Source: Chloroflexota bacterium (GTDB lineage Bacteria; Chloroflexota; Dehalococcoidia; Bin125). Taken from it: a stretch of 64,000 nucleotides of DNA. Each line of letters opens with the position of its first letter. Positions within the stretch are counted from its first letter, which is position 1. The position numbers and the translations under genes were made by a program. Below, piece after piece: positions 10,065 to 11,822 of the stretch. Where the stretch lies: contig VXQZ01000001.1 of the NCBI GenBank assembly GCA_009838735.1, positions 1-64,000 on the forward strand, written 5' to 3'. Under the pieces are notes generated by a model. The model did no database searches. It saw nothing but the letters and a program-made list of their open reading frames with translations, and was not told the origin of the DNA.

Positions 10065-10138
10065 TGCCGAGTAGTGTAACGGTAGCACTAGGGACTTTGG
10101 ATCCCTCAGTTCAGGTTCGAATCCTGGCTCGGCAGCCA
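10065..10138 (+). tRNA. tRNA-Gln (anticodon TTG)
   Basis: A 74-nt tRNA eight bases after tRNA-Leu. The acceptor TGCCGAG pairs with CTCGGCA, the anticodon loop CTTTGGA gives TTG, the T-loop is GTTCGAATC, and CCA is encoded. It forms the left boundary of a lower-GC accessory segment. Confidence 0.92.
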
Positions 10139-10188
10139 GTCATTTGCTGTGGAAGGCGACCAAAGCCTTGCCGGCAGACTGAGGATTG

Positions 10189-11019
10189 TTAGCCGCCTAA
10201 CTCTATCAGCGCCGTAGGCGCGACGTCCGTGTACCATGTAGCACATTGCCCCTTTGGTCGATTGGGCCATCGATGTCTCCTAGCAACAAGGGATTCTGAG
10301 AGCTGATGCGCCCATGCTTGCATTTGCTGGTGCTCGCCGCTCCACAACTCTTCCAAGTCTCCATCGCGCACTTCAACGTATCGCCTTAGGATCGCGGCGT
10401 AAACGTCGGCAAGTTGGACCAGGCTTTCATGGTGAGACTTGATAGCGTAAGGCGTATTGATTATCTGGTCAAGGCGCTCTGGCAGCTTCTTCTTGGTCTG
10501 GTAGTAGTCGTCAGTCCAGGGTGGAGGGTTCCAAAGAAGCTCGCTGAGTCTGTCGGCCTTTTGCTTGTTGTCGTCGAAGATCAAGAAGGTCTTCCCTTTG
10601 TTCTTTTGCATGTTCCTGTTCATATGTTGAATCTGCAGGGCAATATGAAGGCCCGCTGCGAGCCATTCGTCTCTGAGTTGGCTCGGGACACTGGTCATCT
10701 TAGTTTCTCTAAGTTTTCGTTTGTCCACTGCCGCGAGGACAATCGAATGACTGTTCGTCTGGACGAAAGAACACAGTGAGTCGAGGATGCTAGCCCAGTC
10801 GACCGAGGACAGGTGGCTCCATCCACCTTTGCGGCTAACAAGGCGTGATCCTTTCAACTCCGAGAGATCGCCCGGGAAGACTTCAGATATCGTCGAAAGT
10901 TCTTTCGTCAATTCGCGCTGGGCTTTGTTGAGTCTTGTCGCATCCACCAGAACACCCACCATAATCAGGCATCTCGCGCTTGAGTTATGGCCTGTTTCGT
11001 CGACGTAGCAAACTTTCAC
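10189..11019 (-). CDS. DUF3800 domain protein
   Basis: About 276 residues. The N-terminal YVDETG matches the Y-x-D-E-[ST]-G signature of DUF3800, and the late QLADVYAAILRRYVE matches the conserved Q-L-A-D segment, both thought to belong to an RNase H-like acidic site. The GTG at 11019 is preferred over ATG 11046 because GGAG lies seven bases before it. DUF3800 genes are common in mobile and defence-type regions; the biochemical role is not established. Base composition and codon use are visibly more AT-rich than the neighbours, supporting transfer. The gene lies between tRNA-Gln and the displaced tRNA-Asn fragment. Confidence 0.8.
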   Translation of the reverse strand: MKVCYVDETGHNSSARCLIMVGVLVDATRLNKAQRELTKELSTISEVFPGDLSELKGSRLVSRKGGWSHLSSVDWASILDSLCSFVQTNSHSIVLAAVDKRKLRETKMTSVPSQLRDEWLAAGLHIALQIQHMNRNMQKNKGKTFLIFDDNKQKADRLSELLWNPPPWTDDYYQTKKKLPERLDQIINTPYAIKSHHESLVQLADVYAAILRRYVEVRDGDLEELWSGEHQQMQAWAHQLSESLVARRHRWPNRPKGQCATWYTDVAPTALIELGG

Positions 11020-11192
11020 GGGTGTTCTCCATTCGTATTGGGCCATTCGCCGAATCTACGCGTAACGGATCGAGTGTGTCGAGAATACGTGGCAACAGCC
11101 ATGTGGTGCTACGATTGGAAGTAGTCGGGTGCGCTGAAGAAAGAACAATTGGTAGGTGTTGCGTGTGAATCTCGTGAAGGACTGTTGGTAGT

Positions 11193-11234
11193 TGGCCGTC
11201 CGGCGAGGACTCGAATCCGCAACCAAGCGGTCAA
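11193..11234 (-). repeat. Displaced 3' half of tRNA-Asn (candidate attachment-site remnant)
   Basis: Forty-two bases align with the 3' half of the intact tRNA-Asn (11747-11788), in the same orientation, with 34 identities by eye. The match runs from the anticodon loop through the T arm to the terminal CCA. The 5' half is absent: the hicB stop codon falls inside the fragment. The T stem is degenerate, so this is not a working tRNA. Together with the intact tRNA it flanks hicAB like attL/attR. Confidence 0.7.
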
Positions 11235-11455
11235 TTGCCTCCGGTTGCAGGAGCAACTAGCTTACGAGCTGGTGCTGGAATCGGATGCCCGAACTCCTTC
11301 GCAGTATCGAGCCAGAGCGACATAGCCACTTGGGCCTCCTCGAGCGCTCTTTCGTAGGTCTCGCCGTGCGCAGAGCATCCCGGCAACTCCGGAATGTGTG
11401 CGATGTACGCGTTGTCTTCTTCGCTCCAAAAGATGATGATTTCGTATTGAAGCAT
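11231..11455 (-). CDS. hicB: HicB family antitoxin
   Basis: A 74-residue protein with the HicB partial RNase H fold pattern: YEIIIFWSEEDNAYIAHIPE, then LPGCSAHGETYERALEEAQ, then ALEEAQVAMSLWLDTA. It starts in the stop codon of hicA (TGATG overlap), the usual toxin-first hicAB order. HicB neutralises HicA and often represses the operon; no separate DNA-binding C-terminal domain is evident in this short form. Its stop lies within the displaced tRNA-Asn fragment. Confidence 0.88.
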   Translation of the reverse strand: MLQYEIIIFWSEEDNAYIAHIPELPGCSAHGETYERALEEAQVAMSLWLDTAKEFGHPIPAPARKLVAPATGGN

Positions 11456-11718
11456 CAGTTTCCTCCTGAGGCGTCGCGCAGATTGTGCTTTGCAAGCACC
11501 GCGCGGAGTTGGCGCAGTTGGTAGGGTATCGCGTCTGAGCCCTGTGGCTGCAGGTTGATTGTGTCGTCGATACCTGCCCTCGCGTAGATGTGATGACTCC
11601 CCCGTATTCGCTCCTCAAACCCCATTCTAATGAGAAGCGAACGCACGTCGTTGAAGGCGATGTTGGCGAGCTGCCGTCCGTCGAGGATGCGATTGAGGAG
11701 TCGCTGATGGCGGTTCAA
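11455..11718 (-). CDS. hicA: HicA family toxin (mRNA interferase)
   Basis: An 87-residue protein with the dsRBD-like HicA fold. GSHHIYAR carries the catalytic histidine, and the C-terminus LRAVLAKHNL is typical of the family. The N-terminal half is longer than in minimal HicA (about 60 residues). The start appears to be TTG at 11718, with GGAG six bases before it. Only 28 bp separate it from the 3' end of tRNA-Asn on the same strand, leaving little room for its own promoter, so read-through from the tRNA promoter is possible. Confidence 0.85.
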   Translation of the reverse strand: MNRHQRLLNRILDGRQLANIAFNDVRSLLIRMGFEERIRGSHHIYARAGIDDTINLQPQGSDAIPYQLRQLRAVLAKHNLRDASGGN

Positions 11719-11746
11719 GCTAGGCTCCGCGCACTTCAGCGAAGGA

Positions 11747-11822
11747 TGGCTGCCCGGGCAGGACTTGAACCCGCAACCTAGCGGTTAACAGCCGCCCGCT
11801 CTACCAATTGAGCTACCGGGCA
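11747..11822 (-). tRNA. tRNA-Asn (anticodon GTT)
   Basis: A 76-nt cloverleaf with CCA encoded. The acceptor TGCCCGG pairs with CCGGGCA, the D arm is GCTC/GAGC, the anticodon loop CTGTTAA gives GTT, and the T arm is GCGGG/CCTGC. It is the only full copy of the sequence partly duplicated at 11193-11234. Confidence 0.95.

Follow-up and report, generated by a model that had tools for sequence, protein, structure and literature searches.

A hicAB pair between tRNA-Asn and a copy of its 3' half in a Dehalococcoidia genome: a likely non-autonomous, CIME-like cassette

We consider it likely that a hicAB toxin-antitoxin pair lying beside the only tRNA-Asn gene of a Dehalococcoidia (Chloroflexota) genome is a non-autonomous, CIME-like cassette, inserted site-specifically at the 3' end of that tRNA gene. 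The window, that is, the whole stretch of 64,000 nucleotides that was analysed (G000:C19:1-64000), comes from a genome of 3.15 Mb in 56 contigs, and the locus was compared in this genome and 13 other genus members (n=14), represented by assemblies that are mostly metagenomic. The cassette would have the layout tRNA-Asn 3' half, short leader, hicA, hicB (Table 1), and its route into the tRNA gene would have been site-specific recombination. The 3' half that it brought along would keep tRNA-Asn whole, and the 3' half of the gene now at 11747-11822 would be cassette-borne; the host's own 3' half would have been displaced to a position directly behind hicB, where it supplies the hicB stop codon. 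The integration enzyme would have been given in trans or since lost.

Table 1. Features of the hicAB cassette and the surrounding interval, with positions in the window
Feature	Position	Strand	Evidence or remark
tRNA-Gln(ttg), hotspot boundary opposite tRNA-Asn	10065..10138	+	ARAGORN
Variable interval between convergent tRNA-Gln and tRNA-Asn	10139..11746	.	47 to 3166 bp in 14 genus members
DUF3800 gene, 285 aa, hotspot cargo outside the hicAB unit	10189..11046	-	PF12686 47.7 bits
Putatively displaced and decayed tRNA-Asn 3' half with its CCA; marks the distal end of the cassette	11193..11234	-	34/42; recognisable to ~11242
hicB, antitoxin, 74 aa	11231..11455	-	PF15919 39.9 bits
hicA, predicted toxin, 87 aa, TTG start	11455..11718	-	PF07927 27.5 bits
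Leader, 28 nt, from CCA to the hicA start codon (TTG)	11719..11746	-	CGGAG = possible ribosome-binding site
Intact tRNA-Asn(gtt), putative insertion target	11747..11822	-	ARAGORN; 76/76 identical across 14 genus members

The partial tRNA copy matches the tRNA-Asn 3' end gaplessly, with 39/50 identities if the alignment is extended to 11242, and lies on the same strand as the intact gene. In 150 first-order Markov shuffles of the 1608-bp interval, no ungapped match exceeded 25/42, so the same-orientation copy that the sequence-only reading had reported is far above chance. Its local score was 28-29 against tRNA-Asn and 16-18 in shuffled windows. Another tRNA was rejected as the source of the fragment, as the other 47 tRNAs of the genome all match it far less well (scores ≤18). 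Between the two tRNA-Asn copies stand hicA and hicB alone, in a unit of about 550 bp, and gene calls and Pfam revealed no integrase there and no recombination or conjugation genes in the cassette, all of which agrees with the earlier description. No extra copies of the 10139-11746 interval were found in the genome. A search within 5 kb of each of the other 47 tRNA genes gave no clear copy of the gene's own 3' part (scores ≤17), with the exception of tRNA-Arg(tct) (G000:C52, L175 5743-7631), for which a like-oriented, borderline 3' copy with a score of 19 lies 1.8 kb downstream; an apparent DEAD-box helicase gene stands in between.

The HicA domain was matched marginally (cut-off 27.0 bits) and the HicB domain was matched against a cut-off of 27. 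The hicA stop overlaps the hicB start (TGATG), and the hicB stop codon, TGA at 11231-11233, lies inside the tRNA fragment. HicA retains the conserved histidine (H42); this residue and S41 are invariant in the five rows of the alignment, and the GSHH motif region is conserved. Comparison of the window with its relative G012 gave dN 0.04 and dS 0.44 for hicA, and dN 0.02 and dS 0.48 for hicB; both genes are under purifying selection between the two genomes. The product would be an ordinary HicAB toxin-antitoxin pair with a presumably active toxin. In keeping with the family, the cassette has HicA and HicB domains encoded by overlapping genes with the toxin first, but it differs in its tRNA-side location, its short HicB and its probable dependence on the tRNA transcript. 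The hicA start codon lies 27-29 nt behind the CCA in the five genomes with hicA, and in the three genomes with hicB-only units the hicB start codon lies 22-23 nt behind it. Because a distance of 22-29 nt leaves no room for a promoter, we infer read-through from tRNA-Asn, with the tRNA-Asn promoter probably driving hicAB.

The cassette forms a single layer of a larger variable interval, which is flanked by the CNNM and RNase D genes. In the window this interval measures 1608 bp and has a G+C content of about 0.54, lower than that of the flanking genes (0.68-0.69). This tRNA-Gln/tRNA-Asn interval is a turnover hotspot in the genus, with lengths of 47, 198, 230, 904, 1013, 1196, 1414, 1447, 1594, 1608, 1760, 1882, 1962 and 3166 bp in the 14 genomes. 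Comparison of the locus among relatives, which the sequence-only reading had proposed as a search for an empty site, yielded both a near-empty site (G009, with 47 bp between the tRNAs) and alternative contents. Either hicAB or hicB stands directly behind tRNA-Asn in 8/14 genus members: G000, G004, G005, G010 and G012 have both genes, and G001, G006 and G007 have hicB without hicA, in units that can be shorter than 300 bp. DUF3800 genes are present in the intervals of G000, G003, G004 and G006, the G008 interval holds an IrrE-like peptidase-domain protein, a DUF4411 protein and a DNA methylase-HNH protein, and in G013 and G014 the encoded proteins match no Pfam family. A stretch of about 140 bp, 80-82% identical, is common to G010, G014 and G005 (L023, L016, L019) at differing positions, near tRNA-Gln or mid-interval, and is possibly a dispersed repeat. 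The contigs of G011 end in tRNA-Asn and before tRNA-Gln, and this genome is uninformative on the interval. Contigs break off inside tRNA-Asn or one base behind it at G011:C49:7401-7448 and at the end of G144:C47 (L245), which would fit further copies of the 3' half in those two genomes.

If insertion at the tRNA 3' end recurred, one would expect tRNA-Asn copies at the ends of hicB genes, copies younger than the material behind them, and a unit boundary at the CCA. A tRNA-Asn 3' copy was found at the hicB end in five of the eight hic-bearing intervals (G000, G006, G007, G010, G012), in each case overlapping that end or within ~15 bp of it, and none above the search threshold in the six genus intervals without hic genes (0/6); copies above threshold are thus confined to hic-bearing intervals, and no relative was found with the fragment but without a hic gene. 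One antisense match in G004, with a score of 16, is at noise level. In G007 the copy is pristine (51/51), as against 34/42 in the window; the hicB remnant on its far side has decayed heavily, which indicates that the insertion is younger than what stands behind it. A second, broken hicB also lies beyond the copies of G010 and G012. These remnants in three genomes, together with a 159-bp duplicated tRNA segment in another family (G048, below), could be taken as products of a tandem duplication of the tRNA-Asn 3' part with hicB, the distal copy of which then decayed; we hold this to be very unlikely, since a single event would have given the tRNA copy and the hicB remnant of G007 the same age. 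The alignment of G000 and G012 runs from tRNA-Asn to the CCA of the fragment and diverges exactly there, with nothing in common until tRNA-Gln. The cassettes of the two genomes are 88.6% identical at the nucleotide level, about as diverged as their flanks (86-90%), and therefore may derive from one old insertion.

The duplication, the unit boundary, the near-empty and alternative states and the turnover of the interval are direct observations; neither a circular form nor a strain-level pair of empty and occupied sites was seen. In related species the same tRNA end would have taken several such cassettes, layered as in the tandem accretion of CIMEs. The window's cassette is probably locked in by decay of its distal copy, because precise excision would leave the genome's single tRNA-Asn gene with mutations in its 3' half (8/42 mismatches). 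To hold the cassette in place, decay of the fragment would suffice by itself, as excision would then damage tRNA-Asn; toxin-antitoxin addiction is a plausible candidate reason for the retention of hicAB. Some copies could owe their good preservation to gene conversion from the intact tRNA.

No recombinase was found by Pfam in the tRNA-Gln/tRNA-Asn intervals of the genus members, and a search for a helper integrase via PF00589 revealed two loci only in most of them, presumably XerC and XerD; the PF00589 matches of G000 are on contigs other than that of the window. Of the two things that the sequence-only reading had suggested looking for, similar hic units behind tRNA-Asn were found in eight genus members, and PF00589 matches beyond these two loci were absent from most of them. 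An integrase-bearing element does occur at this site in the class: in G030, a 409-aa tyrosine integrase lies next to tRNA-Asn in a 32.6-kb element, the far end of which carries a perfect 51-bp tRNA-Asn 3' copy. This element indicates that the tRNA-Asn site is used by integrases and that the copy which they leave behind is of similar length. Such larger elements, and the view that CIMEs arise through deletion (PMC7563491), lend something to the idea that the cassette is what deletion has left of a larger integrated island, a stub reduced to hicAB and kept by toxin-antitoxin addiction. We regard this as unlikely. Larger islands holding this hicAB were found in no relative, diverged hicB types turn up in units of one common size, and hicB-only units of less than 300 bp occur, so that small size looks characteristic. 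Searches for a parent element (ICE or IME) carrying this hicAB also found none. Where the earlier reading had wavered between a non-autonomous mini-island and such a stub, the former is favoured by the discrete unit that G000 and G012 delimit at the CCA, and the latter, which is not needed to explain the cassette but might hold for the deep past, was not borne out.

The identity of HicB does not follow species relations. The sisters G004 and G006 are 88% identical in RNase D and 51% in HicB, and the G004 HicB is 76% identical to those of G007 and G010. A search for HicB relatives beyond the family gave 80 loci, of which only the four from this genus lie directly beside a tRNA. Relatives on phages and plasmids are weak (44%, 37-39%), with one plasmid match at 63%, and viral contigs gave no exact match to the tRNA-Asn 3' half. 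Whole intervals are also exchanged, as near relatives have unrelated intervals between conserved flanks: G008 and G010 have flanks about 90% identical and wholly different intervals, and G009 and G013 likewise share the tRNAs alone across theirs. It could be argued that swaps of this kind, by homologous recombination in the conserved flanks and following one ancient tRNA duplication, account for the whole pattern, and they would require no integrase. This we think quite unlikely, as it leaves the origin of the duplication unexplained and as copies of very different age, pristine in G007 and 55/74 in G006, stand at corresponding positions.

The cassette that we propose most resembles the CIMEs, a concept that a paper on Dehalococcoides islands credits to Pavlovic et al. 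2004 (as cited in PMC3146451). CIMEs have flanks made of att-site copies, lack integration and conjugation genes and pile up at a single target gene, where decay of CIMEs and microCIMEs is greatest in those farthest from the target (PMC7563491); the cassette shares putative att-type flanks, the lack of mobility genes and this kind of stacking. CIMEs with cargo measure 1.2-13 kb and gene-less microCIMEs 130-220 bp (PMC7563491), whereas here about 550 bp hold one toxin-antitoxin pair, a size between both, and descent from an ICE or IME is putative. Within the same class, the Dehalococcoides ssrA islands are arranged in tandem at a single-copy RNA gene, and 15 of them lack an integration module; they differ from the cassette in their ssrA target, 20-bp repeat, serine recombinase, far larger size and rdhA cargo (PMC3146451). 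Partial tRNA copies at the far end of an element are known as fragments left by integration, but the elements described are many kilobases long (PMC9897764). In Shewanella a HipAB toxin-antitoxin pair maintains an island integrated at tRNA-Trp, but that island is a 48-kb composite with an integrase, and in the cassette the toxin-antitoxin pair is the whole cargo (PMC8978831). In the part of the literature covered, we found no report of a tRNA-targeted unit consisting of a toxin-antitoxin pair alone, and one incidental paper only on hicAB at tRNA-Asn. The cassette would show how small a tRNA-targeted unit can be: one toxin-antitoxin pair with no enzyme and, it seems, no promoter, seen repeatedly at the same site. 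It is a tractable case for the spread of toxin-antitoxin modules and for a tRNA transcript as their carrier, and a hicAB pair next to a tRNA can flag a hotspot whose content changes even between close relatives.

Related arrangements occur elsewhere in the class. In another genus, G015 has hicAB behind tRNA-Asn without a tRNA copy, and in G080 hicB and then hicA follow 21 nt behind tRNA-Asn. In another family, G048 (L198, G048:C430 1859-5233) has the order tRNA-Gln, tRNA-Asn, hicAB and then the duplicated segment, which consists of the tRNA-Gln 3' part and tRNA-Asn (159 bp, 94%); beyond it lie further genes, including an RHH-PIN pair, and a third tRNA-Asn copy, identical to the second (74/74), whose start touches the stop of the PIN gene. 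We tentatively raise the possibility that in Dehalococcoidia the tRNA-Asn 3' end both receives promoterless cassettes of one or two small genes and expresses them; these would be bounded by tRNA-derived copies, would often move with no enzyme of their own and would rely on the tRNA promoter for their expression. The cargo, under the same reservation, might be hicAB, hicB alone, a vapBC-like pair or a GIY-YIG nuclease, with promoter sharing somewhat as in integron cassettes.

In other families of the class, a gene for a GIY-YIG nuclease (~78 aa, PF01541) lies roughly 14-34 nt behind the CCA, where measured, at tRNA-Asn (L260-L265, L268 and L269, in G049, G033, G248, G205, G268, G271, G103 and G057) and at one tRNA-Ala (L270, G259). 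At E 1e-16, all 12 matches (12/12) in 294 class genomes adjoin a tRNA or a piece of one. Behind most of these genes is a tRNA-like copy with a hairpin, often TCCTTC-N-GAAGGA, replacing the anticodon arm, and the GIY-YIG cassette may be an independent element of the homing type. The similar architecture at the same tRNA end could suggest that the hic cassettes spread likewise by nuclease homing, but this is extremely unlikely: there is no GIY-YIG match in the window, nor at E 1e-16 in G000 and its genus-mates, and the hic-associated copies keep the anticodon arm. A mirror layout was seen in L266 and L267 (G172, G164), where a tRNA-Asn 5' part with a hairpin for the anticodon arm is followed by the GIY-YIG gene, a repeat of the upstream region and then the intact tRNA-Asn; L268 also has a tRNA-Asn 5' part with a hairpin upstream of its tRNA-Asn.
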